Assembly (NCBI GenBank): GCA_903875605.1
Contig: CAIQWT010000097.1
Span: 62,001 to 126,000 of the forward strand
Length of the DNA stretch: 64,000 nucleotides
Direction: 5' to 3'
DNA from: an uncultured Geobacteraceae bacterium
GTDB taxonomy: Bacteria > Desulfobacterota > Desulfuromonadia > Geobacterales > Pseudopelobacteraceae
Both the position numbers and the translations under genes were made by a program. The notes under the pieces were generated by a model. That model was given only the letters and a program-made list of their open reading frames with translations, searched no databases and was not told the origin of the DNA. Shown in pieces: positions 1,633-29,666 of this stretch; within the stretch, counting starts at the first letter, position 1, and every line of letters begins with the position of its first letter.

Positions 1633-2571
1633 CTATTCCCAAAAGACAAGCCCGCCATGCTCGTCGCGACCGGAGTCCAGATTCCAGTCTGAGAATGATG
1701 GCATATCAGTCGTGCCTACTGCATTGATCGCCTTTTCTACAGACCTCCATACCTCCGCAACATTGTCTGCCGCCTCGTCGAATATATCGTCATAATCAAG
1801 GCAATATGGAATTTCAGTCGGCACTAACTGCTCCACAATATACTGTCGACTAACTTTTTTGTATGCCGGATAAGTCAAACCCGTTTTTGCTGCTATAACA
1901 CCGGCAAGCGGAAAAAGCCGGACTTCTCCGGCTCTGCAATCTATAGCCTTGGCAATAAATTCCCTGTGCCACCTGGTACTATCAGGAGGATATGCAGCAA
2001 ACATCTCAGGGTGGACGTCTTCCAGCATCCCCTCCCAGAGCATTACTATATCGCTGTCCAAACCGATTCTGTCGTCGGGATTACCACAGCGCGCAATAGT
2101 CAATGCAAAATGATCCGACTCCCCTATTTCACCAAGACCCATCCTTTGGTAAATGTAACTATCCTGATTCATTTCACAGATTCGGTGGTGGCGCTCATTT
2201 TCAGCATACCCCCCCACCCTGGCCTGTACTATGGGATGTATTGTTACATCCATTGCCACATGCGCACAATATCCAAGCAGCCATGCCAATTGTTTTTCAC
2301 GAGCGGCTCCGCAGCAGTTTCTAACGCGCAAAATACCGCGCACCATCATCTCACATGCCCTGGTATAATGCATGGCATCGGCCCAGCATGATGCTTGGCT
2401 ATTTCCCCGTGCAAGATTTGGGTAATCCGGACTAACTGCCCCCAAAACACAGTAAGGGAAATATTCTGAAACAATGCCTTCAAAACCTGATGCAGGTGAA
2501 AAAATCTTTTCAAGCCTGCCAGGGCGGACAAGTTCATGCATTAGTGTGATATGGGCATAAGGGCCGGCCAT
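1633..2571 (-). CDS. Zinc-dependent phospholipase C-like protein
   Basis: About 312 aa, matching the zinc-dependent phospholipase C superfamily. It has an N-terminal MAGPYAHI, an early Asp-rich segment (GAVSPDYPN), H-rich helix GYCAHVAMDVTIHPIV and further His/Asp positions expected to bind metal. Known members hydrolyse phospholipid head groups, but many bacterial relatives are uncharacterised. ATG 2571 is selected because a strong GGAGG lies 5 nt upstream; an earlier in-frame ATG (2604) has no such signal. There is no clear signal peptide, so a cytoplasmic or peripheral site is likely. It is last in the minus-strand lipid-type cluster, 45 bp after the DUF2062 gene. Family call good; substrate unknown. 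Confidence 0.7.
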   Translation of the reverse strand: MAGPYAHITLMHELVRPGRLEKIFSPASGFEGIVSEYFPYCVLGAVSPDYPNLARGNSQASCWADAMHYTRACEMMVRGILRVRNCCGAAREKQLAWLLGYCAHVAMDVTIHPIVQARVGGYAENERHHRICEMNQDSYIYQRMGLGEIGESDHFALTIARCGNPDDRIGLDSDIVMLWEGMLEDVHPEMFAAYPPDSTRWHREFIAKAIDCRAGEVRLFPLAGVIAAKTGLTYPAYKKVSRQYIVEQLVPTEIPYCLDYDDIFDEAADNVAEVWRSVEKAINAVGTTDMPSFSDWNLDSGRDEHGGLVFWE

Positions 2572-2616
2572 ACAGCCTCCAGGAGTTACCTTTATCAAGA
2601 CCATGACTGATCTGTT

Positions 2617-3102
2617 TTATGAATCAGAGCTTTTGGCTTTTTTTCTGAAAACGGTGGATATAAGCATACCGTAAGTTAGCAGCACGACAGGAAGAACAGT
2701 TACCACCCAGGCAGCAAGAGAAGTAATAACCATCCAGCCCAGGATATTAAGTGACGATGCAGCGGGACTGTTAATCAGTAAAGACAGAGACTGCTGCGGG
2801 ATCTTCGGCCCCCAGGCAAACAGCCATTCACCAAGCTTGAAAAAAGGGATAAACAGAGCCAACTGAAGCGGATATAGTAGATAATTGACCGATTGCAGTG
2901 CTGCGTGATTAAGCCTGAAAAGATGCGCCAACATAACACCTATAAGCGTTGTACCCCACAGCAGAGGCATTGTCCCCAATGCTGCACCAATGCAGAGCGT
3001 CTGGATAAGTTTCCGTGGCGTCATCCCGGATGTCATTACAGACCGGAATCTTTTTACACCTGAGGAGACAAACCTTACCCATAGACGTTCCTCACGCTGC
3101 AT
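2617..3102 (-). CDS. DUF2062-type integral membrane protein
   Basis: About 161 aa with hydrophobic segments near GAALGTMPLLWGTTLIGVML, YLLYPLQLALFIPFF and a C-terminal span (WVVTVLPVVLLTYGMLI). This fits the small multi-pass DUF2062 family, which is often found near glycosyltransferase and lipid genes and has no agreed function. The start is ATG 3102, just after the stop of the upstream Lgt-like gene; an alternative start at 3153 would overlap that gene by 41 bp. Its place in the cluster suggests a membrane helper in lipid handling, which is inference. Confidence 0.65.
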   Translation of the reverse strand: MQREERLWVRFVSSGVKRFRSVMTSGMTPRKLIQTLCIGAALGTMPLLWGTTLIGVMLAHLFRLNHAALQSVNYLLYPLQLALFIPFFKLGEWLFAWGPKIPQQSLSLLINSPAASSLNILGWMVITSLAAWVVTVLPVVLLTYGMLISTVFRKKAKSSDS

Positions 3103-3112
3103 CTCAGACGCG

Positions 3113-4165
3113 TTAAATCCGGTCACTGTGCACATGAAAGCTGAGCGTTGCACCAGTTACCGTGCTGCGTCCCGTATAGAAAAACAATAACACCCAGATG
3201 CACTGTAGAAACAGAATAAGCGCAGGACTCCAGAGGCTCTTCAGCCCGGCAGCAAGGTCAGGTGTACCGCTCTGTGATCCGGCAAAAAAGAAAGCTGCAG
3301 CAACGGCATACACGGCACCAACAAGCCCCATGATCTGATAGGCAGAAATGGAGCCTTCCCCGCGATAGTCGGCCCGAAGTGTTTCCGAAAAAGATCGCCA
3401 CCCCTGTGTGGTTATGGTCGCCAGCAGGAATGCACCCATTTGATGCGAAAGAAGATACATTGCTGCAGCGGTAAGACCGCAGATGCTGTAGAGTACGGCT
3501 GTAAGAGCCTGAACAGGAATAACCTCTGCGCCTTCCAGACCTCCTGCGTAGGCGATTTTTTTGGTGTTGCCGGTAAAAATAAAAGCTCGGCCGGTAAAAA
3601 TCCGTTTGAGCAGCTCCGAACTGATTGAAAGGGGTTTCCCGTAACAGCAGCCAAAACTTATACAGGCCATCCGCCCCAACCCTTCGCCAATTGCATAGGC
3701 AATGGCAATAGCGGCATACGCCGACATAATTGGAATGTGAAATGCCAGCTGTTCACCCGCGGTGAGATTAATTACTGTTATCACAAAAGGCGTGATCACT
3801 ATTCCGACAAATACCGCCCCGCCAACAGTGAAAGTGTGGTTCTTCTTTTCCACAATCCGGGCAACCAGTCGCGACGCCGGCACACAGCAAAAGAGCATAG
3901 AGGCCGCAAGGATGGCCGTCCCGAGTGGAGGAACCCCAACCGCCCCCATAAGCACCAGCAGAACTGCTACCGCCACCAGGTAGGCGTTGGCAGTGAGAAG
4001 CCCGTACCAGGTAAAGTTAACACCATTCCACTCCCCGCTTCCGGTTCTCGAAACCGGCATTGAAGCGACTATCTGCCACTTCTCGCCTGGCAGGACTTTG
4101 AATCCCCACCAGAAATATGCGGTAAAGACCGTAACGGATAAAATCAGTGCCATAGCAATAATCAT
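3113..4165 (-). CDS. Lgt-like (prolipoprotein diacylglyceryl transferase family) membrane protein
   Basis: 350 aa, polytopic, with the layout of the Lgt family: an early NFTWYGLLTANAY segment and the core EGLGRM...GCCYGKP at 161-178. True Lgt moves diacylglycerol from phosphatidylglycerol to the lipobox Cys and carries a GR-x-GNF-x-N signature; here that Asn-containing signature is replaced by the GCCYGKP variant. It is therefore likely a paralogue with another acceptor. It overlaps the upstream PSD-like gene by 4 bp (4162-4165), which implies translational coupling. The later FSETLRADYRGE resembles the EF-LR-D region of Lgt. Family call firm, activity uncertain. Confidence 0.75.
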   Translation of the reverse strand: MIIAMALILSVTVFTAYFWWGFKVLPGEKWQIVASMPVSRTGSGEWNGVNFTWYGLLTANAYLVAVAVLLVLMGAVGVPPLGTAILAASMLFCCVPASRLVARIVEKKNHTFTVGGAVFVGIVITPFVITVINLTAGEQLAFHIPIMSAYAAIAIAYAIGEGLGRMACISFGCCYGKPLSISSELLKRIFTGRAFIFTGNTKKIAYAGGLEGAEVIPVQALTAVLYSICGLTAAAMYLLSHQMGAFLLATITTQGWRSFSETLRADYRGEGSISAYQIMGLVGAVYAVAAAFFFAGSQSGTPDLAAGLKSLWSPALILFLQCIWVLLFFYTGRSTVTGATLSFHVHSDRI

Positions 4166-5178
4166 TGCGCCCCCCTTGACGCCAAAGTTTTTCGTGCTGT
4201 ACCCAGCAGAGACCTCACCCGAATATCCGTTTCCACAAGGGGCTTTTGAAATCCGTGTGTAAAGCGACTTGAAGCGTCTGCGTGGTTCATGTTGTCCAAA
4301 ATGTCCTTTGCAAAGTCAATGCGTCCTTCCTGGAATATCAGTATGTCAGTACTGCTGCCCGGACGATAGAGACTCTTGGGCTGCCCCTTCAGAAAAAACC
4401 GGCCCTTTTCAACCTGTCGTGGCGAGTCATACTCTTTAGAACTGTAGGCCTGGACGATATCGCCTATCATCAGAGCGACTACCTCGACCATTGCCACCAA
4501 TCCGACACCGGTCCCGCCGGCCACATCAGTATCGATGATCGTTACCACACGTTTGTTTTTGGAATATGGAGTGGCAACGGCAACTACTGCGGAGGGGTTA
4601 CAGGAGTGATACTCTCCGTCAATGGTATAGAAATCGACCAGTTCTCCTGCCACTGGAGTGTGGTTATAATGATATTTATCAGGCGTCAGCCTAAAAACAG
4701 CAAAATCTCCACCGTTAAATGTTTCATGCCAGATACCTTTTTCCGGTCCAAGAAATTCTTCATAAGTGAAAAATTTCCCCTTCAGAAAAATCATGGCGGT
4801 TTCACGGAACGACCCCACCAGAACCCTTGCATCAGCCGGAGAAACTACAGCATCCGTTTCATCCGGCATGGGGCGGCATTCCCAGTAACGGATTTTTCGC
4901 TCGAATATTCTGCGAGGAGTATCAAGCTTTGCAGGCGGGTCGAGGCATTCCGACAGATCAATCCCGCAGTTGGCCAGAAAGGCTCGCTTGGACAACACCG
5001 GGCGATCAAAATTGATCATACTGAGGACGTGGGACGCTCGACTGCTGGTCAACATCCTGAACAGGGCGGTCCTGTTCTCGCGCACGTCATGATAGAGCAG
5101 CTGAACCATCCGGTCCCCGAACAAACGCTCGGTGATGACTTTACCGCTATCGCGCTCGATATACTGGTGCGGCATCAT
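4162..5178 (-). CDS. Phosphatidylserine decarboxylase-family protein
   Basis: 338 aa. PSD converts phosphatidylserine to phosphatidylethanolamine using a pyruvoyl group made by self-cleavage. Visible hallmarks are SPADAR (113-118, matching the usual SP-x-DG), DKYHYNHTPVAGE (168-180, matching YHR-x-HSP) and a cleavage-site-like PGSST (273-277, instead of the usual LGST). The shifted serine motif makes a variant pyruvoyl enzyme plausible. ATG 5178 has GGAGCAAC upstream. The gene overlaps the 816-aa gene upstream by 32 bp and the Lgt-like gene by 4 bp. It may be the housekeeping PSD or, more likely given the divergent motifs and company, a specialised paralogue. Confidence 0.8.
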   Translation of the reverse strand: MMPHQYIERDSGKVITERLFGDRMVQLLYHDVRENRTALFRMLTSSRASHVLSMINFDRPVLSKRAFLANCGIDLSECLDPPAKLDTPRRIFERKIRYWECRPMPDETDAVVSPADARVLVGSFRETAMIFLKGKFFTYEEFLGPEKGIWHETFNGGDFAVFRLTPDKYHYNHTPVAGELVDFYTIDGEYHSCNPSAVVAVATPYSKNKRVVTIIDTDVAGGTGVGLVAMVEVVALMIGDIVQAYSSKEYDSPRQVEKGRFFLKGQPKSLYRPGSSTDILIFQEGRIDFAKDILDNMNHADASSRFTHGFQKPLVETDIRVRSLLGTARKTLASRGAQ

Positions 5179-7597
5179 AAGTGTTGCTCCTTTGAATATC
5201 GTGTTGAGAATCTGGCACGACCTGGTCGTGGTGCACCTTAAACAGGATCAGGTTCATCAGGCGTTGCAGGGTGGCACAGTCAGCCTGTTCGCGAAGAACG
5301 TCATCAGTGGCGGTCTCAACAAAGCGAGCTGCATTCTGCCCTTGAAGAATGACGCGCAGGGCATTGCGCTGTGACTCGTCCAGAGGACACTGCTCACGAT
5401 CATAAATGCTGCAGTCCTGAACTAAAAAGCCCATTGCCTCTTCAAGATGGCGCTTACGGAGGGTCGTGCGGTAGTAGCGTTCGGCCCCGGTATTGAAATC
5501 GCGTGGATTGGCACGCATTGGTGACGATGCGTTTACTTCCTCAAGAATGCCGGACGTCAGGCGCCCGGCTGCGGAATAAATGGCAGGTTCGTTAATTCGT
5601 TTTTCCAGGTCGCTAATGGTTTCGTGAAGTCCCATAAGCTCAATCAAATCAGCTGCGTCCTCACGAATCAACGCAATCAGCGCCCGGCGGTACTCATGAA
5701 TCTGAACCCGCAAATAGCCTGGATAGCGGTGACTTGCTCTAATGCCAGCGGTTTTTTTGAGGATTTTTTCCAGAAAAGCATTGGTGCTGTTCCTGCGCAC
5801 AAAAAATGTGGGGAGGCCGATGGCCGAACCAAAAAATATTTGCCGCCGCTCGCTCTCCACAGATGGAGTATCAGGAATATGGGTATGAGTTGTACCAAGT
5901 GCCATATATTTATAGGCCAGTGCTGTGATCAAAGTTTGCAGATTAGCAGCCTGACCCATGTCATCGCCAAAATTTTCGAAGAGACTGTAATATCTGCCCT
6001 CAAAGCCTGAAAAACCCATGGTAGCGTATTCGCGCTGTTTACATAGCAGGTAGACCGACATCTGTTCATCGAACACGCCCATGTCGGCCAGATCGCTACG
6101 CAAACGCTTACTGTTGCCTACCTGACCATCCAGCCCGGGACTGCGCTCTGTTGAGAGCAGACAAACCAGATAATCAATCAATCGGTAGTCAGGAACAAAA
6201 TCTCCTTTCAACCTGAATATGGAACTCACCAGTTTGTCCAGCTTTTGCGGCCCGAAGGGTGTGACCGGTTGGCCGAAGATGGAAAGGTCCGCCTTTTTTT
6301 TCCAGCGACGCCAGATCATTCGCAGATGGGTATAGTCCAGTTCATGCGGCAGAAACCCTAGTGCCTTTTCGGGGTGGAAATCGGTAAAAGCCATCCTGTA
6401 GGGGGCCGCTGTGTAGGTGCCGACAAAGAGTGGCAGAAAATGTTCCGTGATCTTTATTGCCAGGTCACCGAAATGCTTTTCGTGAACCACGTTAAACCCC
6501 GAACCTCCATCGGCAAGAGCAGCGGTCATTCGTCGACTACCGATACTTATATGAGTTCCGTTGTTGGCAAGGCAGACGTTTGAAAGGTTGGGTAGAGCCA
6601 CCAGGTTGGTGAGTATGACACCGGCGTCGCGCAGCTTGGCAATAGCATTAAGCTGGCTGCGCGACAACACTTGATGGCAGAGTTGCATGTAGCGGAATTT
6701 ATCCTCTCCCTTATCCCAACCGGAAAGACATGGGCTCATGAAGAGGTCGCGGTAGAAGCTGTCTGAAACATGGTCATTCAACTCTTTCTGACGAACGGGC
6801 GGATGGGGGGCAAAATAGGTCATTGCCTGCTGACCGCGCTCGGCAAGACCAAATGCCTGATTGGCGTACATCACCAGCAGCTGTGTCATGAGAAAACGGA
6901 TAGCGGTCTCTTTGGCAATAGCCCGGCCCATGCCGGTGCCTGGCGAGAGGGTGACTACATTGAACGAAAATGTTTCCGGCGAGGTATTGTCATTAAGATA
7001 GTGCTCAAGCAAACGTATGCCCGTCTGACTGATACTCTTCGGGAGTATGTGCTGGGAACCGATCAGGTCCGCCAAAGCAAGCTTTATCAGATAACTGATA
7101 GGCAGTCTCAACATCTCCTCGCCCGAGTTATCACGGTATGTAAAGCGACTTGAATCGGCTCGTGTTCCGGCAGCAGGATTCTTTTTATCAGCCAGAAAAT
7201 CTTTTTCCAGTACATCGTGAGCATAGCGGGAAAGGTTTCGACGTGGGAATCGCACCCAGCTGTTTTCCCAGACACCGGAAGGATTGTCCGCCAGAAAACG
7301 TTCAAGATCTGCGACAGCCTTACGTGGTGTTTCACCCGCAGCTGCCCGCTTCATCATATTGGCGAAGAAATTGGACTGTTCAATCAGCAGCGGCAGATCG
7401 ACATCGTTCTGTGCGCCGCAGACTACGGCCTGAAGTTCGCTTTCCGAACCCGCAGTGACATCATTCAACGAAAAAGGCAGTGTGGCCGCCAACTCATCTC
7501 TGGATGCAAAGGAAACACCCAGTCTGGAGAATACCTTGCGGGCGCTTTCCGGTGTCGCGTCTACCTCCTGATTTACGGGAAAGTGCGCGCCGCTCAT
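5147..7597 (-). CDS. Large uncharacterised protein (816 aa), lipid cluster
   Basis: I do not recognise a domain in this protein. It is soluble-looking and helix-rich with no signal peptide. It has several conserved-looking patches (for example TLSPGTGMGRAIAKETAIRF near 222-241, and FEGRYYSLFENFGDDMGQA in the second half) and many Arg/Lys/His residues. It is the first gene of the minus-strand cluster and its end overlaps the PSD-like gene by 32 bp, so the two are very likely co-translated. A role alongside the decarboxylase-like and Lgt-like proteins is inferred from this coupling only. Confidence 0.7.
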   Translation of the reverse strand: MSGAHFPVNQEVDATPESARKVFSRLGVSFASRDELAATLPFSLNDVTAGSESELQAVVCGAQNDVDLPLLIEQSNFFANMMKRAAAGETPRKAVADLERFLADNPSGVWENSWVRFPRRNLSRYAHDVLEKDFLADKKNPAAGTRADSSRFTYRDNSGEEMLRLPISYLIKLALADLIGSQHILPKSISQTGIRLLEHYLNDNTSPETFSFNVVTLSPGTGMGRAIAKETAIRFLMTQLLVMYANQAFGLAERGQQAMTYFAPHPPVRQKELNDHVSDSFYRDLFMSPCLSGWDKGEDKFRYMQLCHQVLSRSQLNAIAKLRDAGVILTNLVALPNLSNVCLANNGTHISIGSRRMTAALADGGSGFNVVHEKHFGDLAIKITEHFLPLFVGTYTAAPYRMAFTDFHPEKALGFLPHELDYTHLRMIWRRWKKKADLSIFGQPVTPFGPQKLDKLVSSIFRLKGDFVPDYRLIDYLVCLLSTERSPGLDGQVGNSKRLRSDLADMGVFDEQMSVYLLCKQREYATMGFSGFEGRYYSLFENFGDDMGQAANLQTLITALAYKYMALGTTHTHIPDTPSVESERRQIFFGSAIGLPTFFVRRNSTNAFLEKILKKTAGIRASHRYPGYLRVQIHEYRRALIALIREDAADLIELMGLHETISDLEKRINEPAIYSAAGRLTSGILEEVNASSPMRANPRDFNTGAERYYRTTLRKRHLEEAMGFLVQDCSIYDREQCPLDESQRNALRVILQGQNAARFVETATDDVLREQADCATLQRLMNLILFKVHHDQVVPDSQHDIQRSNTYDAAPVYRAR

Positions 7598-7873
7598 AGG
7601 CTCTTACCATAGGCGCTGCAAGCCGGATGCGGCGCAGTGGAATAACCTGCAATGCCCCCTGACGCTTTTCGCATGTATAATACTGTTTTGAAAGCTATCG
7701 ATGAAGGCACAATGAAATGTAATGGGTGGGATGTTTGGTACGCCGGGCAGTATATCGATGCAGTAAAATTATTTTTCATATGTTGCATATCATATATTAA
7801 AATTGTGACGAACGTGTTTTCGCTGTGTAAATGTTGTGTTACTTTTCAAACCTTTTTTGAACAGGGGATGGAA

Positions 7874-8629
7874 CTATATCTCCTTAATCACCGACGTGGC
7901 TTTGACAGAATACGAATTTTTTTCTCCCTTGCCGTCCTGGCGGTACATCACCACTGTGGACCCATCCCATGTGATCCAGCGCCGGGCTTTTTTATTCTGA
8001 TCTGAAAAATCCACGATCCTGCAAGGCATATCCTTGCCCCCGAGTTGGTAAAAAGCATTTTGCACAAGACGGTACTCGCGCTTGACTACGGCAATTTTTT
8101 CAACATCAAGGACTCTCAAGGTAATATGCGTTTTATCCGAAAAATCCAGGCGTGCCTCGGGACATTCCATAGTAGTATAATCATAACTACTTCGTGGAAT
8201 AATGATCGTGCGCGTTGCCCCCTGTTCACGCACATCAAAACGGAAGGAGGAAGCATCAAGCCGCCCTTCAATGTCAATAGCGGTCCCGTTTTCTCTCCCT
8301 TTTCGGGAATAGCTGGCCAGACTTCCCTTTAGAAGCGTTCCTTTCTCAATGGTTTCCTGATGGTATCCCATCCACAAAAAAGATGCCTTAACCGCTGTTT
8401 TTGTTTCAAAAAAAATCCCCGCAGCAGCACCCTCTTCAGCCTGACGCTGAGTGGTAGTGACATCTCCAATATTGAACCCCATTGAGGAAACTTTATAGTG
8501 CGCAACTGTTTTCACAGAATTATCGGCAGAATCGCCCGGAAGCGGAATAAAAAGCAGCGTCAGCACTATAGTCGCAACTATTCTGAAGTTGAAGGGCTTC
8601 CCCGAAGATGAGCGACTGAGCAGGATCAC
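7874..8629 (-). CDS. DUF3108-type exported protein
   Basis: About 251 aa. GTG 8629 is chosen because it overlaps the TGA of the PsiE-like gene (GTGA) and has GGGAAGAGG just upstream; a longer frame to 8728 would run deep into that gene. A signal peptide follows (RIVATIVLTLLFIPLPGDS-AD). The mature part is a beta-rich domain (HYKVSSMGFNIGDV, SFRFDVREQG) typical of DUF3108 periplasmic proteins, which are uncharacterised but often linked to the cell envelope. It is coupled to the upstream PsiE-like gene. Confidence 0.7.
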   Translation of the reverse strand: MILLSRSSSGKPFNFRIVATIVLTLLFIPLPGDSADNSVKTVAHYKVSSMGFNIGDVTTTQRQAEEGAAAGIFFETKTAVKASFLWMGYHQETIEKGTLLKGSLASYSRKGRENGTAIDIEGRLDASSFRFDVREQGATRTIIIPRSSYDYTTMECPEARLDFSDKTHITLRVLDVEKIAVVKREYRLVQNAFYQLGGKDMPCRIVDFSDQNKKARRWITWDGSTVVMYRQDGKGEKNSYSVKATSVIKEI

Positions 8630-9063
8630 GCCTCTTCCCTGAAACGGCGGGGAGAAAACCTGACGGCAATGATCCTGATGCAGGCAAGCGAGAGCACCAG
8701 CAAAATCGTCATAGCGACCTCCTGCCACTCCATCTCCTTGTACCAGAAAGCCATGACTTCTGTTAAAACAGTCACCATTACCGTGTCGATGATATAAGTG
8801 ACCTTGACCCTGCCTTCCGTAAAGTAGGCAAGTGCCGTACGCAAAACCTCCACAATGGCAAGCACTGTCAGGATATCAACCAGAATTATCTTGAAAGCAG
8901 AGTGAAAACTTTGCTGAAGAATGAGTCTCAAGTCGTAAAACGTGCAGCCTATTCCTGCTAAAATTGCCATCAGTATAGCTACAATTAATAGCGAAAGTAC
9001 AACACGAGCAGACATCTCAAAAAAACGACTTACTTTCAGATCGACAACATCTTCTTTCCACAT
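8626..9063 (-). CDS. PsiE-like phosphate-starvation-inducible membrane protein
   Basis: About 145 aa with four predicted membrane helices (VVLSLLIVAILMAILAGIG, AFKIILVDILTVLAIVEVL, VTYIIDTVMVTVLTEVMAF, VAMTILLVLSLACIRIIAV) and the FEMSARVVL...FY-L pattern of the PsiE family. In enterobacteria psiE is induced by phosphate starvation, but its job is unknown. ATG 9063 follows AAGGAG by 10 nt and is preferred to ATG 9093. It is divergent from the PHP-glycosyltransferase/ppk genes, so a shared control region is possible. Confidence 0.7.
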   Translation of the reverse strand: MWKEDVVDLKVSRFFEMSARVVLSLLIVAILMAILAGIGCTFYDLRLILQQSFHSAFKIILVDILTVLAIVEVLRTALAYFTEGRVKVTYIIDTVMVTVLTEVMAFWYKEMEWQEVAMTILLVLSLACIRIIAVRFSPRRFREEA

Positions 9064-9213
9064 GACGCATTCGCTCCTTGTGATCTTTTCCATTACTGTA
9101 GCAGGATAAGATTACGATCACGTTATGGTGTAGTGACGATTGGGAAAAATTGTTGGTTATTTTTGGTTACGGTACTCATTTCTACACAACAATCACACAA
9201 ACTCAACATAACT

Positions 9214-9231
9214 GTAACATTGCTATGTTAC
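9214..9231. promoter_or_regulatory. Inverted repeat upstream of PHP-GT gene
   Basis: GTAACAT-TGCT-ATGTTAC is a perfect 7-bp inverted repeat with a 4-bp spacer, ending 11 bp before the start codon at 9243. It overlaps three weak PhoB-box-like half sites spaced 11 bp apart (9212, 9223, 9234). It could be an operator or an mRNA hairpin near the ribosome binding site. The symmetry is visible; regulation is inference. Confidence 0.4.
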
Positions 9232-9242
9232 TAATGTAAGGC

Positions 9243-11651
9243 ATGAACTCATACAAAGCAGATCTTCACGTCCACTCCAGTCATTCCAATAAGCCGACCT
9301 ATTGGGCTATGCGCAAGTTTAGCGTCCCTGAAAGCTATACCTCACCAAAACATCTGTACCGTATTGCCCGTGAACGGGGCATGGATTTTGTAACCATTAC
9401 CGATCACAACTCCATTAATGGAGCGATGGAGATAGCTCACCTACCGAACACCTTCATTAGTGCCGAGATTACGGCACATTTCCCTGAAAACGGCTGCAAG
9501 GTCCATGTGGTCGTGCTGCACATTTCTGAATCACAGTTTCAGGCTATAATGGAGCTGCGCAAAAATGTGTACGAGATGGTCGCCTATCTTCATGCGGAAA
9601 AAATCAGCCATTTCCTGGCACATCCACTCTACGCACAGAACGGTAAGCTGAATTGCGAGATTATTGAAAAGTCACTGCTTCTTTTTACCACCTTTGAAAT
9701 CAAGAATGGTTGCAGGGCGCATCGTTTCAATGGCTTCACAAAGCGCCTTGTCTCATCTCTCAACGAAAATGTCATTAATCGTTTGGCTGATACACACAAT
9801 CTGCAGCCTTACGGCTGCACACCCTGGATCAAAGGGATGGTCGGCGGCTCTGATGATCACGGAGGGCTGTTCATCGCCCGGGCACACACTACCGTTTATG
9901 ACACGCCAACGGTCGACGGCTTCATTGACGCTATCAAAAATGGCGACAGTTGGGCTGATGGTGACGATGGCGGTCCGCTAACTATGGCCCACAGCCTTTA
10001 TGGTGTTGCTCACAGTTTTTATCGGGAGCGACTGGGACAGCGGCGCAGTGGCGCAACACCGTTTGTAAGCGCCCTGCTGGACAGGTTCTTTAACCTTGGT
10101 GAAGAAAAGGGTTCATTCCTGGACAAGGTACGCCTTTTTATCCTCAAAAATCTCCCCGCCTCGCGTAATCATACTGGAAAAAGTTTTGAAGAAATTCTCG
10201 ATAGTGAGGCTCGATTACTGCTCAGTGACACCGCTTTTTTGGAAGCAATCCGTCATGCTGATAGTAACCGCAAAATATTTGCGGTTACCAGTAGACTTGC
10301 TAATCGTTTGATTTTTCACTATACGAGCCGCCTCATGACATTACCGTACAACGCCGGTTTTTTTGAATACCTCAGCACTGCCGGCACGATAGGCTTAGTT
10401 CATACCCTTATTTCCCCCTACTATCTGGCTTTTCACCACCAGCACAAAGGTAAAGAGCTGATAAGAAACCTCACTATTGCGTTGCCTGAAATGCACCATA
10501 AGGAAGCCGTCGAGAAAACAGCCCTGTTTACCGACACTATTGATGGAATCAACGGCGTTGCCATAACAATAAAACGCCTGATAAGCACCGCTAAGAGCCG
10601 TGGTGTCGAGCTGACGGTCATCACCGCAGGCGATGAGGGGGAAGCAACTGTAGAGGGTGTGAAAAGATTCCCGTCTGTCGGTGACTTTGTGCTACCGGAA
10701 TATCCTGAGTTAAAGCTTAATTTCCCTCCGATCCTGGACGTGATGAACTTCATTGAACGGGAAGGCTTCACCCGCATCCATATCAGCACCCCTGGCACTG
10801 TCGGGCTACTCGGCCTTCTGATTGCGCGCATGATGAACATACCGGTAGCCGGAACCTACCATACCGACATCCCCCAATATGTGCGCAGCCTGACAAATGA
10901 TGAATTCCTCGAGCAGGCAGCCTGGAGTTACATGATCTGGTTTTACAGCCAGATGGAAGAGGTTTTGGTACCATCAGTTGGGACCCGGGAGCAGCTACGC
11001 TCCCGTGGCCTTCCGACTGAACGAATGAAACCTCTCCCCCGCTGGGTTGATACGGAAGTGTATTCTCCGGAAATGCGCAACCCCAGCTTTTGGAAAAGCC
11101 GTGGAGTGGGTCTTGGCAGGATAGTGCTGCTTTATGTGGGGCGGGTTTCCCGCGAAAAGGGACTTGAAATGCTGGTTGCGGCTTTTACTGAACTTGTTGA
11201 CAGCGGAGCGCCAATAGCTCTTGCAATTATCGGCGACGGTCCGTACCGCCAGGAGATGGAAACAAACCTCACTGGATATCCGAACCAGTTCACCGGCTAT
11301 CTGACCGGAGAGCAGCTCCAGCGGGGCTACGCTTCAGCCGACATGTTCGTATTTCCGAGTGCCACCGACACCTTCGGCAATGTGGTCCTCGAAGCACAAG
11401 CCTCCGGCTTACCGGTTATTGTATCAGATGAAGGCGGCCCCCGCGAATTGATGCGTGATGGAGAAACAGGTATCGTATTCCGTGCAGGAAGCGTCAAAGG
11501 ACTCGTCGACGCCGTCAGATTATTGATTACCGACCCGGAGCGAATGTCTCGTATGGGGCAAAATGCCCGCGACTTCACCTTAACCAATGCACCAGACATC
11601 AACGAAACCTATAACACCATACTCCACCTTGATAAGCATAATACGCGGTAA
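9243..11651 (+). CDS. PHP-domain / GT4 glycosyltransferase fusion
   Basis: 802 aa. Residues 1-250 form a PHP-type metal hydrolase domain: ADLHVHSSHS with the HxH motif, TDHNSING, and GSDDHGG. From about residue 410 there is a two-domain retaining glycosyltransferase of the GT4 family: HISTPGTVGLLGLLIA, GTYHTDIPQYV, LYVGRVSREKGLEML, and the donor-binding FPSATDTFGNVVLEAQASG. The GT part resembles bacterial glycolipid/mannosyl transferases. The PHP domain may hydrolyse a phosphoester, so one protein could join hydrolase and transfer steps. It sits 77 bp before ppk on the same strand. Donor and acceptor unknown. Confidence 0.85.
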   Translation: MNSYKADLHVHSSHSNKPTYWAMRKFSVPESYTSPKHLYRIARERGMDFVTITDHNSINGAMEIAHLPNTFISAEITAHFPENGCKVHVVVLHISESQFQAIMELRKNVYEMVAYLHAEKISHFLAHPLYAQNGKLNCEIIEKSLLLFTTFEIKNGCRAHRFNGFTKRLVSSLNENVINRLADTHNLQPYGCTPWIKGMVGGSDDHGGLFIARAHTTVYDTPTVDGFIDAIKNGDSWADGDDGGPLTMAHSLYGVAHSFYRERLGQRRSGATPFVSALLDRFFNLGEEKGSFLDKVRLFILKNLPASRNHTGKSFEEILDSEARLLLSDTAFLEAIRHADSNRKIFAVTSRLANRLIFHYTSRLMTLPYNAGFFEYLSTAGTIGLVHTLISPYYLAFHHQHKGKELIRNLTIALPEMHHKEAVEKTALFTDTIDGINGVAITIKRLISTAKSRGVELTVITAGDEGEATVEGVKRFPSVGDFVLPEYPELKLNFPPILDVMNFIEREGFTRIHISTPGTVGLLGLLIARMMNIPVAGTYHTDIPQYVRSLTNDEFLEQAAWSYMIWFYSQMEEVLVPSVGTREQLRSRGLPTERMKPLPRWVDTEVYSPEMRNPSFWKSRGVGLGRIVLLYVGRVSREKGLEMLVAAFTELVDSGAPIALAIIGDGPYRQEMETNLTGYPNQFTGYLTGEQLQRGYASADMFVFPSATDTFGNVVLEAQASGLPVIVSDEGGPRELMRDGETGIVFRAGSVKGLVDAVRLLITDPERMSRMGQNARDFTLTNAPDINETYNTILHLDKHNTR

Positions 11652-11728: not shown

Positions 11729-13888
11729 ATGACTGAGACCTTAAAAGCAAAACCGCGAAAAACAAATACTCCTGCAGGAGAAATAAATCTTTCAGACCGC
11801 TGCTGGTACCTTAATCGCGAACTGACCTGGCTCGAGTTTAACCGCCGCGTACTCCACGAGGCCGATGACGAGCGTACTCCGCTTCTTGAGCGCCTCAAGT
11901 TCATTGCAATTGTCAGCGCTAATATGGATGAATTTTTCATGAAGCGCATCGGCGGCCTTAAACAGCAGGCCGGTGCCGGCTTGCGTGAACTAAGCCTTGA
12001 TGGCCTCACTCCGCTCCAGCAGATAGAGGAATGCTACCGGTTAGTTCGGCTTATTGAAGACAGAAAAAGCCAATTACTGCTACACATAATGGAGCTTCTT
12101 AAAGAGGAGGGAATCAGTATTTCTGCAGTGAGTGATTTAAGTGCTCGTGAGCGGAAAGAGCTCCGTAGCCACTTCGCAAAGAATATTTATCCACTGTTAA
12201 CGCCTCAATCCATTGATCCGGCCCATCCGTTTCCATTTATTTCTAATCTGTCGCTCAACCTTCTGCTTACCTTTAATTCTTTTTCGGGGCTCGATATGCA
12301 ACTTGCCCGCGTTAAGGTTCCGGTCGGACATAGCACGTTTCGCTTCATACCGGTACCTGGCAAAAACAACAGATTTGTGAGTATTGAGGACCTGCTCTGT
12401 TGTAATTTTGACATGCTTTTTCCAGGTATGAAGGTGGTGCGTTGCGATCTGTTCAGAGTGACCCGCAATGCCAACACTGAAACGGATGAAGAAGAGGCTG
12501 ACGATCTGGTGGAAATGATTGAAAGCGAGCTAAAGGAACGGCGCTTCGCCCCCATCGTGCGTATGGAGGTAGCGGAAGGAATGCCGATCCTCCAGCGAGG
12601 CAGACTGGCAGCTGAACTCAATATCAACGAGAATGAAGACGTTTTTGAAGTCACTGGCCTGCTGGCCATGCGTGACCTGTTCGAGCTGTCAAGGCTCGAC
12701 TACCCGCATCTGCATGACCCACCACACCACCCTGTTGTACATCCACAATTGCATTCACAACGGAATATTTTCCATATTATCCGCGACGCCGGCTCAATTC
12801 TGCTTCAGCATCCGTATGAATCGTTTTCGACATCAGTAGAACGTTTTCTGCGCGATGCTGCAGATGACCCCAAGGTACATGGCATCAAAATGACACTCTA
12901 CCGCACTTCCAGCCAGAGCCGCATTATTGAAGCACTGTTGATGGCCGCCCAGAACGGCAAACAGGTTGCAGTGGTGGTTGAGTTGAAAGCGCGCTTTGAC
13001 GAGGCCACTAATATCCGTCTGGCCGAACAGATGGAACAGGCGGGTATTCACGTAACCTACGGCGTCGTCGGCTTGAAAACTCATTGCAAGGTCATCATGA
13101 TTGTCCGTCAGGATTTTAATTCCCTGCGACGTTACGTACATATCGGCACAGGCAACTATCACGCCGATACGGCACGCCTCTACAGCGATGTCGGCCTGCT
13201 GAGCTGCAGTGAAAAACTCGGCAAAGATGTTACTGAGCTATTCAATTACCTGACGACCGGATTCAAGCCACGCAGAAAATACAACTGCCTGTTGACGGCC
13301 CCCCGTTTCCTTAAGCAGTCGTTGTTAGCAAAAATTGAACGTGAGATCACTCTGCACCTCGAAAACGGCGGCGGCCTGATTCAGTTCAAGATAAACGCCC
13401 TTGAAGACGGAGAAATTGTTAAGGCTCTTTATCAGGCTTCTCAAGCTGGAGTGATGATCGACCTGATCGTGCGCGACACCTGCCGCCTGCGACCAGGCAT
13501 CGCAGGCCTGTCAGAAAACATCCGCGTTGTTAGTGTTGTGGGCCGCTTTCTAGAACATTCGCGGCTTTACTATTTCAGAAACGGTGGCGAAGAAGAATAT
13601 TTTATCTCATCTGCAGACGCCATGAAGCGGAACCTTGAAGCCCGGGTCGAGGTCCTCTGCCCGATAGAGCCTCCGGCACTTGCTCATGAGCTCAGAAACA
13701 TTTTCGATGTGCATCTGCATGATGTACGTTCAGCATGGGACATGCAACAGGATGGCAGTTATATTCAGAGAACACCTGCAGATGGGGACATGACGGGAGA
13801 CAGCCACAGTCAATTGATAGAGCTTGCGGAGAAGCGGGCTGAACTGTATCGAAAGAGAATGAAGAAAAAGAACCTTTCACAGCCATAA
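11729..13888 (+). CDS. ppk: Polyphosphate kinase 1
   Basis: 719 aa, the usual length for PPK1, which reversibly polymerises ATP gamma-phosphate into polyphosphate. The N-terminal domain starts with NRELTWLEFNRRVL. The catalytic part has KMTLYRTSSQSRI, ELKARFDEATNI, GLKTHCKV (His452, the expected phospho-histidine) and YVHIGTGNYH. It lies in the same direction as the PHP-GT gene and close to minus-strand genes for exopolyphosphatase, CHAD and SixA proteins, placing synthesis and turnover of polyphosphate in one neighbourhood. Very sure of identity. Confidence 0.97.
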   Translation: MTETLKAKPRKTNTPAGEINLSDRCWYLNRELTWLEFNRRVLHEADDERTPLLERLKFIAIVSANMDEFFMKRIGGLKQQAGAGLRELSLDGLTPLQQIEECYRLVRLIEDRKSQLLLHIMELLKEEGISISAVSDLSARERKELRSHFAKNIYPLLTPQSIDPAHPFPFISNLSLNLLLTFNSFSGLDMQLARVKVPVGHSTFRFIPVPGKNNRFVSIEDLLCCNFDMLFPGMKVVRCDLFRVTRNANTETDEEEADDLVEMIESELKERRFAPIVRMEVAEGMPILQRGRLAAELNINENEDVFEVTGLLAMRDLFELSRLDYPHLHDPPHHPVVHPQLHSQRNIFHIIRDAGSILLQHPYESFSTSVERFLRDAADDPKVHGIKMTLYRTSSQSRIIEALLMAAQNGKQVAVVVELKARFDEATNIRLAEQMEQAGIHVTYGVVGLKTHCKVIMIVRQDFNSLRRYVHIGTGNYHADTARLYSDVGLLSCSEKLGKDVTELFNYLTTGFKPRRKYNCLLTAPRFLKQSLLAKIEREITLHLENGGGLIQFKINALEDGEIVKALYQASQAGVMIDLIVRDTCRLRPGIAGLSENIRVVSVVGRFLEHSRLYYFRNGGEEEYFISSADAMKRNLEARVEVLCPIEPPALAHELRNIFDVHLHDVRSAWDMQQDGSYIQRTPADGDMTGDSHSQLIELAEKRAELYRKRMKKKNLSQP

Positions 13889-17148: not shown

Positions 17149-18678
17149 TTATGAAGTTACAAAGACAACTGAGCTGCCAAACGCCTTTTCGAACAGATCC
17201 TTCTTGGCGTTGGCGCCAAAAACTTCCACCGAAACGTCTTCAGTTGCGGTCAGGCTGATTGTTATAGTTGTGCCGCCAAACAGACAGGAAACTGACTGCA
17301 CCAGGCCATTTCTGCGACGATCAAGCCCATCAGCCAGACGCAGAATACCACCCAACCGGGCCACAGTGACCTGATCCTTTTCTTTAAGACTCTGAAAAGC
17401 GTCGTGTTTTCGCTTAGGAAGTGATTTTCGGTGGTAACGTGCAATCTGTGCGATAAGCTCTCTTTCACGCGGAGTAAAGCCGAATAGTTCGGCGTGGCGA
17501 ATGAGATGATATGAGTGCTTATGATGACTCCCATAGCTGATAAAATATCCGCTGTCGTGGAGAATAGCAGCAGCTTCCAGGAGTTTTTTCTCCTCAGGCT
17601 TCATACCGAAGGGCAGTTCCAGCGCATTAAAAATAGAAAGGGCCAAGCCTGCAACGTGCGTTGCATGCAACTCGTCAACATGGCAGGAACGGGCAAAGTC
17701 CTTAATGGCATCTTTCCACGTCGGCGGCGCGCCGCTTCCGGCGGCAAGTCCAAGACGCTTCGTTGCCCTGATAAGAAGACCTTCGCGGATGCCGCGTTCA
17801 TTGACCAGTACCCGGTTTGCTTCAAAAAATCGCATCAGTTCGTCTATCACCACCACACCGGCCACGATAATATCGGCCCGATCCTGGTTAAGCCCCGGAA
17901 TTGTACGTCGTCCTTTAAGGTCTTTGTGAATCATCATTGCCAGCAGGTGGACAACCTCTGCATGAAGAACCTCGGAGCCATGTATCGATACGTAGTTATC
18001 CTTGCGCATCTGCATGGCCATACAGCCGATTGCTGTCAGGGTTCCGCCAGAGCCGATAAATGAATCTACAGATATTTTCTTTCCTGTAAAAGTACGCTTG
18101 AGGCTATCCCTGATATGGCGCTGAAGTTTCCGTAGTTCGCCCTCGTCTATCGGATCACTCACTAGAAAACGGTCGGTCATGACAACAGCACCAAGGTCGA
18201 GAGAATAACATTCCTCAACATGATTTCCATACGCCGTAACGATTTCAACACTCCCCCCGCCGATGTCGACCATGGCGTAACGCTTACCATACATATCAAA
18301 GTTGGCCAAGGCGGATGTAGACGTCAGCTCGGCCTCTTCTTCGCCGGAAATGACCCTGATCTCGTGTCCAAGCTCTTTCGAAAGTATTGCTATCAGCTCC
18401 TTACCGTTGGCTGCGGTTCTTACTGCACTGGTGGCAACCGCCTCAACCGCTGCGACATTCATTCCGGTTATCAGTTTATGAAATCGCCTGATGGCTTCAA
18501 GGGCACGAGCTGACGCCTCAGCAGAAATAACACCGGTCATGGCCAGCTTCTCACCAAGTCGTACCGTTGCTTTTTCATCATCCATTATTTTGAAGGCACC
18601 CTCGCTGGAGACTTCGGCAATGATGCAGCGAATGGAGTTAGTGCCGATATCAATAGCGGCAATACGTGATTTTTTCAT
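17149..18678 (-). CDS. ppx: Exopolyphosphatase / GppA-family phosphatase with HD-like tail
   Basis: 509 aa of the ASKHA fold. Motifs are AAIDIGTNSIRCIIAEV, the phosphate loop AVRTAANG, GEEEAELT and VDIGGGSVEIV. The C-terminal HD-like domain shows ILHDSGYFISYGSHHKHSYHL. These enzymes hydrolyse polyphosphate or pppGpp; which substrate dominates cannot be told from the sequence. It starts 9 bp after the CHAD gene and is likely co-transcribed with sixA and CHAD. The position near ppk supports a polyphosphate role. Confidence 0.9.
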   Translation of the reverse strand: MKKSRIAAIDIGTNSIRCIIAEVSSEGAFKIMDDEKATVRLGEKLAMTGVISAEASARALEAIRRFHKLITGMNVAAVEAVATSAVRTAANGKELIAILSKELGHEIRVISGEEEAELTSTSALANFDMYGKRYAMVDIGGGSVEIVTAYGNHVEECYSLDLGAVVMTDRFLVSDPIDEGELRKLQRHIRDSLKRTFTGKKISVDSFIGSGGTLTAIGCMAMQMRKDNYVSIHGSEVLHAEVVHLLAMMIHKDLKGRRTIPGLNQDRADIIVAGVVVIDELMRFFEANRVLVNERGIREGLLIRATKRLGLAAGSGAPPTWKDAIKDFARSCHVDELHATHVAGLALSIFNALELPFGMKPEEKKLLEAAAILHDSGYFISYGSHHKHSYHLIRHAELFGFTPRERELIAQIARYHRKSLPKRKHDAFQSLKEKDQVTVARLGGILRLADGLDRRRNGLVQSVSCLFGGTTITISLTATEDVSVEVFGANAKKDLFEKAFGSSVVFVTS

Positions 18679-18687
18679 GTGACCTCT

Positions 18688-19575
18688 TTATATAAGAAAA
18701 GTGTAGACAAGCGGCTTATGCTCTATCAGCGCGGTGAAGTCCCCAAGCAGGATGGCATCTTCTGCCAAGAGGGTTACTGCGATATGATCGCGCTCATCGG
18801 GAGGTAATTTCAGCTTGCGGAGCAGGTTTTCAAACTCGGCGATATCATTCATTCGACCCAGAAGCGACTGGTAATCTTTAAGCAGCTCGAGGAAAGAAGT
18901 ATACTCCCGATCCAGTATTTGGGAAATAAGTTCAAAGAAGTAGCGCCATTTTTTGATGGCGATACGTAGCGCATGGCGCGACGCTCGCTGTTCTGGTGCG
19001 GTTGAAACAGTGAGTAGATGGTGTATCGGCAGATACTGCCTGATGGAAACGTCAGAAAAATAGGCCAGAAGTGAGATGCTGTTCCGGGAGGTAAAGGAAT
19101 GCTCATTCACACCGGCAACTATTTTCCGGACTATTCGATCAAGAGCACGGTGATCAAACTCCTTGAGCACCTGACTTATAAGTTTTAATTCGCTTGATCG
19201 CTGCCCGGAAAGTCTGTGAAAAAGTTTGTCTCCAGCAGATATGTCTGTTTTCATACGCGCAGCAAAGAAAAGCCGGGCTTCGTCAACATTGCGCAGTCCG
19301 CCCAGTATCCGGGTGAGCATGCGGACACTTTTTCGCAGTTCTGTTTTGGCGCCTTTCGGCACAAATGGATAAAACAGCTCCAGCACAGCCCTGAAACGTC
19401 TTGAAGCAACGCGAAGGTCATGAATATCATCCGGATCGGATGTTATAATTGCGACCTTCCTTAAACGGAGTAATTCTTCCCACTGAGAAAAAAACACTCC
19501 CCTCGAGCGTTCCAGGATCGTCGCCGAATCAGGCCATAATCGGGAAGATTTTGACAACATCAGCTCAGACGACAA
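18688..19575 (-). CDS. CHAD domain protein
   Basis: 295 aa, all-helical. The CHAD signature is visible as DDIHDLRVASRRFRAVLELF near residues 53-72 and a second HALRIAIKKWRYFFEL near 200-215, with conserved His, Arg and Lys residues that bind polyphosphate in studied CHAD proteins. No enzymatic CYTH domain is fused. The gene overlaps sixA by 11 bp (19565-19575) and ends 9 bp before ppx. It probably recruits a partner to polyphosphate granules. Confidence 0.88.
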   Translation of the reverse strand: MSSELMLSKSSRLWPDSATILERSRGVFFSQWEELLRLRKVAIITSDPDDIHDLRVASRRFRAVLELFYPFVPKGAKTELRKSVRMLTRILGGLRNVDEARLFFAARMKTDISAGDKLFHRLSGQRSSELKLISQVLKEFDHRALDRIVRKIVAGVNEHSFTSRNSISLLAYFSDVSIRQYLPIHHLLTVSTAPEQRASRHALRIAIKKWRYFFELISQILDREYTSFLELLKDYQSLLGRMNDIAEFENLLRKLKLPPDERDHIAVTLLAEDAILLGDFTALIEHKPLVYTFLI

Positions 19576-20086
19576 CCGGCGGAAATGCTTTTTTGAACGA
19601 CGAAACCCTTTTCTTGCCCGGGGCTAAATACCAGAGAAAACCTGCCGGTCGTTCATCAGTACCATGGTCAAGCTTCAGAGTAACGCACGCCCCTTTTTTC
19701 AGCGAAATTGTTTCGTCCCCGCGCCCGAGTAAAGCCGTAACCAGTGAACCTAGGTGCGGTTCGTGGCCAACCAGCAGAACCCGCTTGGCATTTTTGCATT
19801 CCTTCAGGTGTGCAATCAACTCACTAACATCAGCCCCCGGAAGAAGTAATCCGCTTGCGACTACCACGTTTTTCCGGCAGGCTTTTTCAGCAGCTATTTC
19901 AGCAGTCTGAACAGAACGTGTAAGCGGACTGGTAAGGGTCAGGCGCGGTTTTGGACCGAACTTGGAAATTGATGCACTCATTTTTTTCGCAACGGACCGG
20001 CCACTTTCAGTCAAATAGCGCCACTCATCCTGTAAAGATTCACTTCCATCCACCGCCTCAGCATGCCGCATTACATATAAAATCAT
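19565..20086 (-). CDS. sixA: Phosphohistidine phosphatase SixA-like
   Basis: About 173 aa of the histidine phosphatase superfamily. The RHG catalytic motif appears as MRHAEAV near the N-terminus, then SPLTRSVQTAEIA and LLVGHEPHLGSLV. SixA removes phosphate from phosphohistidine in signalling or phosphotransfer proteins. ATG 20086 is used because TTGGAGGGCGTC precedes it. It heads the sixA-CHAD-ppx group and overlaps the CHAD gene. A broader phosphoester substrate is also possible. Confidence 0.87.
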   Translation of the reverse strand: MILYVMRHAEAVDGSESLQDEWRYLTESGRSVAKKMSASISKFGPKPRLTLTSPLTRSVQTAEIAAEKACRKNVVVASGLLLPGADVSELIAHLKECKNAKRVLLVGHEPHLGSLVTALLGRGDETISLKKGACVTLKLDHGTDERPAGFLWYLAPGKKRVSSFKKAFPPVVV

Positions 20087-20168
20087 GACGCCCTCCAATT
20101 GTTTGGTAGTAATACCCAAATATTATAGACCTCCTTAACCGCATTGCAACAGCAGTTATAAATGTTCA

Positions 20169-20280: not shown

Positions 20281-21867
20281 CTATTTAAATGCGGGATCTG
20301 CCTGAAAGCCACAGAGACTGGCGATCATTGAAGAATCAGGAGTCGGGTCTATATGCGGAATTTTGCTCTGTCCACCAAGCTTGCCACGTTCCAGTTGTGA
20401 CCATTGATAGATGCCGTCTTCCGGCATCAACATCACAACAGGTGCGTTGATGCGCCCCTGACTCCTGAATGCGGCATAATCGGCATTCAGCTCACACAGG
20501 GTAGCATCAAGTATTCGAGTCGCATCAGCAACATCCACAACATCCTGCACTGCCAGCACCCATTGGTGTCGCCGCGCCGGAATATCTGCCCCGACCATGA
20601 ACTCGCGTACATTCCAGTGATCATTTAGATTGAGATTGGCAACGGCCAGTTCTACCTCAGCCTGAGTGACCTTCTCCTCCAGTTTATCAAGGAATCTGTC
20701 TCGACCGGTGAACTCGATATAGTGAGGAGACGTTGCGGTAAAGCAGATCGTGTCACCGATATGGTAGCGCCACAACCCGGAGCATGTGCTGAGGATGACT
20801 GCATAGCGCTGGCCAGTTTCAACCTCCTCAAGCGGTATTGCATCCGCAAAGGGAGCCGGTTTCCCCTGGCTATCCAGATCTTCAAAGCGGACAAATTCAA
20901 AAAAAGTCCCGTAATACGGGGTCAGGCGCATCTGCTGCTCGCCAAATTGCTGAAACGCCATAAACGCTTCGGATGAAGGGAGCAACTCCAGCAGATGCGG
21001 CAGTCTGCCTTCAAAAAGATTTTCCAGTTCATTCCTGTACGGCTTAATACTGGTGCCGCCATGGATTATCAGTTCAAGATTCGGCAGTAGTTCATGAAGA
21101 GGTTTCCCGCTGATCTCCCCACAGCGTTTCAACAGCAGAATGATCCAGGGAGGCACACCGGAGATAACGCGGATATTGTCATCACGCAGCAACATCTCAG
21201 CCATGGCCTGCAGTTTTTCTTCCCAGGGGAGTGCGGATATTACGGCACCAGGCTCTACAAAGGGAGTGAGATAACAGGGACGAAAACGGAGTGTAAGGGC
21301 ACTCATGTCACCGGACCAGACTCCGCGCCTGACTTTGTTCAGGGTAGTTGATCCGGACATGTAAAGAATTTTGCCGTTCAGTATCTTTGATTCAGGATTT
21401 GCAGTTAGATAACACGCCATCATGTCGAGGGCGGCACGACGGTTTTCGGCGAACATCCGGCTTGAGAAAGGTATGAATTTGCTTGGAGCTGTTGTTCCTG
21501 ACGTTTCACAGAACATCTTGATGCTGCCAGGCCAGGTTATGTTGTCCAGATCAGGAGCTGAATGCCCTAAGGGGTCAGCGGCCTGATTGCCGTAGAAATA
21601 ATCCGTCATAAAATCATGATATGAGCGGATCGGCACATGACTTTTGTAGTAATTATAGGCAACGTCAAAGCGCCTGTTGTTGAGTCCGGCGAAGCTGTTA
21701 TCCCTGCCGAATTTTGTTGCAGACGCAGTCGCAATCAATTCATGAAATATCCGTTGCTGGGCAGCCAACGGGTCCTGTTTATTAAACTGAGTTGCCCGTT
21801 TTACTGCATACGAATGAAGTTGCTTCTGTAGTAAGCGGTTTTTTTGCAACCTTGCAATCATACCCAT
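20281..21867 (-). CDS. GH3 auxin-responsive family protein (acyl-amido synthetase type)
   Basis: 528 aa. Plant GH3 enzymes adenylate carboxylic acids and join them to amino acids. Conserved features here are an ATP-binding loop CETSGTTAPSKFIPFSS near 119-135, ILYMSGSTTL, a YHIGDT motif and the C-terminal hinge FTGRDRFLDKLEEKV. Bacterial members are widespread, with few known substrates. The ATG (21865-21867) follows immediately after the TAG of the upstream alpha/beta hydrolase gene, implying coupling. The acid and amine partners are unknown. Confidence 0.87.
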   Translation of the reverse strand: MGMIARLQKNRLLQKQLHSYAVKRATQFNKQDPLAAQQRIFHELIATASATKFGRDNSFAGLNNRRFDVAYNYYKSHVPIRSYHDFMTDYFYGNQAADPLGHSAPDLDNITWPGSIKMFCETSGTTAPSKFIPFSSRMFAENRRAALDMMACYLTANPESKILNGKILYMSGSTTLNKVRRGVWSGDMSALTLRFRPCYLTPFVEPGAVISALPWEEKLQAMAEMLLRDDNIRVISGVPPWIILLLKRCGEISGKPLHELLPNLELIIHGGTSIKPYRNELENLFEGRLPHLLELLPSSEAFMAFQQFGEQQMRLTPYYGTFFEFVRFEDLDSQGKPAPFADAIPLEEVETGQRYAVILSTCSGLWRYHIGDTICFTATSPHYIEFTGRDRFLDKLEEKVTQAEVELAVANLNLNDHWNVREFMVGADIPARRHQWVLAVQDVVDVADATRILDATLCELNADYAAFRSQGRINAPVVMLMPEDGIYQWSQLERGKLGGQSKIPHIDPTPDSSMIASLCGFQADPAFK

Positions 21868-22944: not shown

Positions 22945-23224
22945 ACGTCCTCCAGTTGTCATTTGGAGGTGATACTAGCATTGTCAAGTTACATCCATAT
23001 TGCGGGCGTGTGAATGTTTTGAAAATTTATGAGCTACTTTTTATCTACGCGCGCATCCACCCTTCGTTGTCTCTCTACTTCGCTAGAATAACAGCTCTCT
23101 TTGTTTTCTACTTGTCATTCGACAACCGATATGCCTAGATTGCTCCTCCTGAACCGGGTAAATACTTTTTAAAATAATGCGGCTTAAAAGCCGGCTTAAC
23201 CACGCAGTTAGTGGAAGGATTTCA

Positions 23225-29305: not shown

Positions 29306-29666
29306 AGTTTAGTCCTTGCTGAGTATACGTATTGGATGCAGGATGTTTCCGAAGTGGAAACATAGCAAAAGCAAGGTTACATCGGGGTGTCAAGTTGGTT
29401 AAATGTTATTTAACGTCTACAGAGGGAGAATTGCAGGAGCAATCCACATATATTCCTGTATCAGGCTTTTTGGCATACATGGGGTGGGAATCTAGATCAA
29501 GCCGTGAACCCAAGGCAGGGCTCCCGGTTTTTTGTCAGAGTTTTTCATAGAATATCATCAGAGATTGGAAGCACAGCAAAGCAAATCGAGGTTGCACTGG
29601 AGGTTGTAAATTCGAATTTAAACAAAAATAAGGGCTGCGATATAAGCCGTAACCCCTTGAATTTTA
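29306..29666. other. Upstream region of pseudokinase gene, no gene seen
   Basis: About 360 bp between the pseudokinase start (minus strand) and the tRNA-Pro 3' end. No coding frame with a ribosome binding site was seen. It should contain the pseudokinase promoter, but no clear -35/-10 pair could be chosen. Confidence 0.4.

Follow-up and report, generated by a model that had tools for sequence, protein, structure and literature searches.

A three-gene unit in the genome of an uncultured Geobacteraceae bacterium probably acts as a PhoB-controlled membrane-lipid remodelling operon that makes a phosphorus-free diacylglycerol aminolipid by a new route (we place the probability of this reading at roughly 0.6). 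The unit lies on the minus strand of the 64-kb stretch of DNA that we analysed (64,000 nucleotides, referred to hereafter as the window) and comprises ORF816 (816 aa, 5147..7597), a predicted ATP-dependent carboxylate-amine ligase; a PSD-like pyruvoyl decarboxylase (4162..5178; PF02666, 1.4e-38) that is a paralog of housekeeping Psd; and LgtL (3113..4165; PF01790, a weak match at 6e-9), an Lgt-like polytopic membrane transferase with a changed acceptor side. Two accessory genes follow on the same strand, for a DUF2062 membrane protein (2617..3153; PF09835, 1.7e-7) and a Zn-dependent phospholipase C family protein (Zn-PLC, 1633..2604; PF00882, Zn_dep_PLPC, 4e-17). Reading the ORF coordinates from the window confirmed all five tightly packed genes of the preliminary description, with overlaps of, in order, 32, 4 and ~41 bp and then a 12-bp gap before the Zn-PLC ORF; Pfam backs the four family names that had been proposed. 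That description had allowed that these might be the only psd and lgt genes of the genome (3.58 Mb, 99% complete, with Geobacteraceae MAGs as closest named relatives). A genome search located a separate housekeeping Lgt (GRIGNFINGELYG, 262 bits) and a short-type housekeeping Psd (143 bits) elsewhere, and a housekeeping role for the cluster is therefore ruled out.

Only part of the cluster is inherited as a block. Among 141 Geobacterales genomes, ORF816, the PSD-like gene and LgtL are present in 57, 58 and 57, respectively, and two incomplete genomes (G049 and G136) account for every difference among the three presence lists; this patchy but all-or-none inheritance argues for one pathway requiring all three genes. 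The "orphan" label given to the 816-aa protein holds insofar as it matches no family library (Pfam, NCBIfam), but relatives (~50% or more identical for those examined, and mostly from Desulfobacterota) are encoded at no fewer than 269 loci among species genomes, with ORF816 covered over most of its length in ~44 of 395 genomes of the phylum. Most of 80 loci preserve the gene order, and PSD and LgtL come after ORF816 almost wherever the flanking sequence is long enough, across Desulfobacterota and in a handful of MAGs assigned to other phyla; relatives of ORF816 stand on single MAG contigs with the labels Acidobacteria, Nitrospinae and Brocadia, for which binning error is possible. Named isolates with the trio are Trichlorobacter thiogenes, Citrifermentans bremense and Geomonas silvestris. 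The expectation of conserved gene order thus holds for an obligate three-gene unit, which we regard as well supported, and the five-gene functional unit first envisaged is ruled out by co-conservation limited to three genes: DUF2062 and Zn-PLC adjoin the trio only in close relatives of the window's lineage and are late accessories, the latter of which could free phosphate from phospholipids. Many Syntrophales-type loci (L109, L118, L119, L122 and similar) encode a small DksA/TraR-like zinc-finger protein between PSD and LgtL, with 10 such loci counted.

The predicted function of ORF816, which has no membrane segment, comes from structural modeling. An AlphaFold (AF2) model built from 87 orthologs reached a pLDDT of 90.6 and a pTM of 0.92, and the fold search described here rests on this model (an earlier AF2 run with 29 sequences had given a poor model and a meaningless fold search). 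The best four Foldseek matches in the PDB (GshA of E. coli, 1v4g; GshA of F. tularensis, 3nzt; and two PafA chains, including 4bjr) all belong to one superfamily, that of glutamine synthetase, and yeast GCL ranked eighth; top matches had probabilities of 0.92, 0.91 and 0.80 but weak E values of 0.1–0.5 and TM scores of 0.43–0.47 (for the best, E 0.1 and TM 0.47 by target). Residues G50xE52xE54, D203..E208, H349, R401 and E533xR535, invariant in 86–87 of 87 orthologs, are the counterparts, in the same order, of E. coli GshA G25xE27xE29, D60..E67, H150, R235 and E328xR330, which we take to serve in metal/ATP and substrate binding. Fold matches within one superfamily, combined with invariant motifs in conserved order, make it quite probable that ORF816 is an ATP-dependent carboxylate-amine ligase. 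It differs from GshA and PafA in its length (816 aa against ~500), in its location within a lipid operon and in having no detectable sequence similarity to them: hhalign gave no signal against either E. coli GshA or the GCS2 profile. A search of 148 genomes of the phylum returned no GshA-family gene (PF04262), and a sequence search of the PDB found no relatives of ORF816 or LgtL, the PSD-like protein alone of the three giving matches.

LgtL exceeds the PF01790 cut-off (36 bits against 24.9) and, as the preliminary description recognized, is without the usual Lgt signature, carrying GRMACISFGCCYG where Lgt has GRxGNFxNxExxG / GRxGNFxNGExxG. Alignment with E. coli Lgt demonstrates an asymmetric pattern of retention: Y54, G55, R165, G176, R257, E261 and R264 of LgtL correspond to Y26, G27, R143, G154, R239, E243 and R246, whereas the His103 position is occupied by V, A, I, T, L or G in 63 of 63 LgtL orthologs, and signature residues N146 and E151 become C168 and C173. 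The cysteines C168, C173 and C174 are invariant in the same 63 orthologs, and the protein (350 aa, ~eight hydrophobic segments) is longer than Lgt. In E. coli Lgt, the residues kept in LgtL hold and activate phosphatidylglycerol (PG), and the essential His103 sits at the presumed binding place of the lipobox peptide (PMC4728403). LgtL is thus like Lgt in its family match and PG-site residues and unlike it in its signature and His103, and does not qualify as an Lgt proper; the loss of acceptor-side residues beside an intact donor side suggests the same donor, PG, and a different acceptor. Having neither H103 nor E151, both essential in E. coli Lgt, LgtL may alternatively transfer no diacylglycerol at all.

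The PSD-like protein shares with phosphatidylserine decarboxylase (PRK00723-type) its Pfam family, the catalytic Asp/His residues and the Gly-Ser-Ser-Thr processing site, all invariant or nearly so (D116, H170, H173 and S275/S276 of PGSST in 56 of 56 sequences), and retention of these features makes it likely to be an active pyruvoyl enzyme, whose substrate may even be true phosphatidylserine. It departs from that enzyme in being only ~26% identical to E. coli Psd, in scoring under every NCBIfam equivalog cut-off and in having HYNH for HRVH. We considered the HRxH to HYNH replacement as a substrate switch and dropped it, as the short housekeeping Psd of the same genome is also without that arginine. 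The PDB relatives found with this sequence include weak matches to PSD-family enzymes with soluble amino-acid substrates.

The trio is preceded by a Pho-box array (7799..7842, minus strand) of four in-register 11-nt units, GTAACACAACA TTTACACAGCG AAAACACGTTC GTCACAATTTT. Direct repeats at 11-bp spacing number 166 in ORF816 promoters against 55 in shuffled sequence, and recur at 22 and 33 bp. A motif derived de novo from ORF816 promoters alone, TTCACC-N5-GTAACA (logL 220, compared with at most 69 in shuffles), performed on a held-out half with p=6e-8 and agrees with GTAACA-N5-GTAACA, obtained from 30 pstS promoters alone. The pstS-trained motif placed 28 of 75 ORF816 promoters over the 90th percentile of upstream controls (p=3e-11), also outside Geobacterales, and scored the promoters higher than dinucleotide shuffles (p=8e-11); against strictly intergenic controls of the same islands, which are themselves enriched, the excess is weaker (p=4e-5). 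Clear Pho sites are present in only about half of ORF816 promoters (39/75 at p<=0.1). In the window, the ORF816 array is the second-best match of a position weight matrix (PWM) for which it was one of ~75 training sites, and ranks seventh (9.6 bits) with the independent PWM trained on pstS promoters. The E. coli-type CTGTCAT Pho box scored hardly above shuffled sequence and was rejected in favor of the phylum motif, GTAACA-N5-GTAACA. Since the 11-bp repeats match the motif of pstS promoters, and Pst, PhoU, PPK, Ppx and PsiE genes surround the cluster, we consider its membership of the phosphate-starvation (Pho) regulon well supported, with control by PhoB predicted. Neither this regulon context and promoter nor the ligase-like fold of ORF816 had figured in the preliminary description.

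Frequent neighbors of the trio (names assigned by reading cluster representatives) are PstS, PstA/C, PstB, PhoU, PhoB/PhoR-like proteins, PPK, Ppx and PsiE. PstS, PstA/C or PhoU occurs in 19 of 80 trio loci of mean length ~16 kb, 16 of the 19 being outside Geobacterales; we estimate that <1% of random 16–20 kb segments would reach into a pst operon. In the source genome pstS lies 16 kb from ORF816, and of the 11 genomes with the trio that are common to our ORF816 and pstS surveys, 5 have pstS within 25 kb. The top five PWM sites in the window precede ORF816 (the only one of them in the training set), a PHP-GT4 gene, a SixA-CHAD-Ppx group, a kinase-PstS fusion and a hydrolase-GH3 operon, and the region is a Pho island. 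The PHP-GT4 gene (9243..11651, plus strand; a PHP domain and a GT4 glycosyltransferase by Pfam, under cut-off in NCBIfam) recurs beside the trio in 16 loci and follows the best window match of the pstS-trained PWM (9198..9219, plus strand, 19.3 bits); a PHP phosphoesterase-like domain fused to GT4 behind so strong a Pho box could be a Pho-controlled glycolipid synthase. It is flanked by a gene of the phosphate-starvation-inducible PsiE family (8626..9093, minus strand; PF06146, 4e-13) and one for a polyphosphate kinase-like protein (11729..13888, plus strand; assigned from reading the sequence, and a recurrent trio neighbor). Near the latter, Ppx/GppA, CHAD and SixA-like histidine-phosphatase genes (17149..20119, minus strand; Pfam), with a Pho box at 20160 found by both PWMs, give the appearance of a polyphosphate island. 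A GH3-family adenylating enzyme of the amino-acid conjugating type is encoded with an alpha/beta hydrolase (20281..22962, minus strand; Pho-box-like site at 22998), and GH3 genes turn up close to the trio in 8 loci. The fusion of a eukaryotic-type Ser/Thr kinase, a PstS-like phosphate-binding domain and OmpA (27089..29305, minus strand; Pfam; Pho box at 29386) is a candidate phosphate-sensing kinase.

We propose that phosphate shortage would lead PhoB to turn on ORF816-PSD-LgtL. LgtL would take diacylglyceryl from phosphatidylglycerol as Lgt does, freeing glycerol phosphate for re-use, and would pass it to a small amino-acid-derived molecule rather than to a lipoprotein cysteine; ORF816 would spend ATP on an amide bond within the head group, and the PSD-like enzyme would strip the alpha-carboxylate of that head group. 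The resulting phosphorus-free diacylglycerol aminolipid could then substitute for phosphatidylethanolamine, and the Zn-PLC accessory and the Pho-boxed PHP-GT4 neighbor would be consistent with the breakdown of phospholipids and the synthesis of glycolipids. Given that cysteine is used by GCL as substrate and by Lgt as acceptor, and that PSD decarboxylates a serine-type head group, one guess at the product is S-diacylglyceryl-(gamma-glutamyl)cysteamine or something closely related to it, though this identity is rather unlikely to be exact and esters, ethers and other amino acids are also possible. The suggestion of head-group or diacylglycerol-transfer chemistry outside the standard pathways thereby stands as the best reading of the gene order and the separate psd and lgt genes, narrowed to three genes and with a chemistry that we infer.

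Three other explanations need to be weighed against an aminolipid operon. A modified phospholipid, in which the PSD-like enzyme acts on phosphatidylserine to give an altered phosphatidylethanolamine head group and Pho control is a sign of membrane stress and not a means to save phosphorus, would suit the true-PSD architecture and catalytic residues that this protein retains; we think it unlikely, as the genome already has a housekeeping Psd, the co-inherited Lgt-like enzyme keeps its PG-site residues, and phospholipid synthesis would be counterproductive in a phosphate-starved cell. It is also quite improbable that the trio lipidates or otherwise modifies a protein or peptide, with ORF816 as a PafA-like or other peptide amidoligase and LgtL as a second lipoprotein transferase with a dedicated substrate: the lipobox-side His103 is missing from every one of the 63 LgtL orthologs, no small conserved substrate gene recurs among the trio's neighbors, and the PSD partner and Pho control favor lipids, even if the top fold matches of ORF816 include PafA and LGT is a lipoprotein-modifying family.

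The ~eight hydrophobic segments and retained PG-site residues of LgtL, and the absence of any recurring transporter within the trio core, weigh against an amide metabolite that is soluble or secreted, such as a phosphate- or metal-scavenger, for which LgtL and PSD would act on non-lipid substrates in the manner of PsiD-type tryptophan decarboxylases. Such a product would accord with the lack of a membrane segment in ORF816 and with the existence of weakly matching PSD-family enzymes for soluble amino acids, yet we judge it very unlikely. A phosphorus-free aminolipid remains our preferred product.

Replacing phospholipids when phosphate runs low is a major adaptation, and each known route covers only some bacteria. 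If our reading is true, an all-or-none three-gene route in Desulfobacterota adds a new lipid class, puts three old enzyme families to a new use, and offers a gene marker and possible lipid biomarker for anoxic sediments and aquifers that are limited in phosphate. More tentatively, and with some doubt, the trio may define a new class of membrane lipids that are free of phosphorus and widespread in anaerobic Desulfobacterota, wherein an Lgt-type ether or thioether link joins diacylglycerol to an amino-acid head group that is decarboxylated and amide-linked. In the papers that we searched we found no description of this gene combination. The known remodelling enzymes, OlsBA/OlsF/GlsB (ornithine and glutamine lipids), BtaAB (betaine lipid) and PlcP-Agt (glycolipids), are all absent from the trio, and to our knowledge none of their routes uses Lgt-type transfer from PG together with an amide ligase and a pyruvoyl decarboxylase. 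In phosphate-limited Desulfovibrio alaskensis G20, >80% of lipids become phosphorus-free through homologs of Agt and OlsF (PMC5193443), and related anaerobes thus have this need but serve it with other enzymes. The trio shares a PhoB-type promoter, a Pho neighborhood and a set of lipid enzymes with such Pho-regulated remodelling, a known physiological response of sulfate reducers as well as of other bacteria (PMC5193443, PMC6298996).
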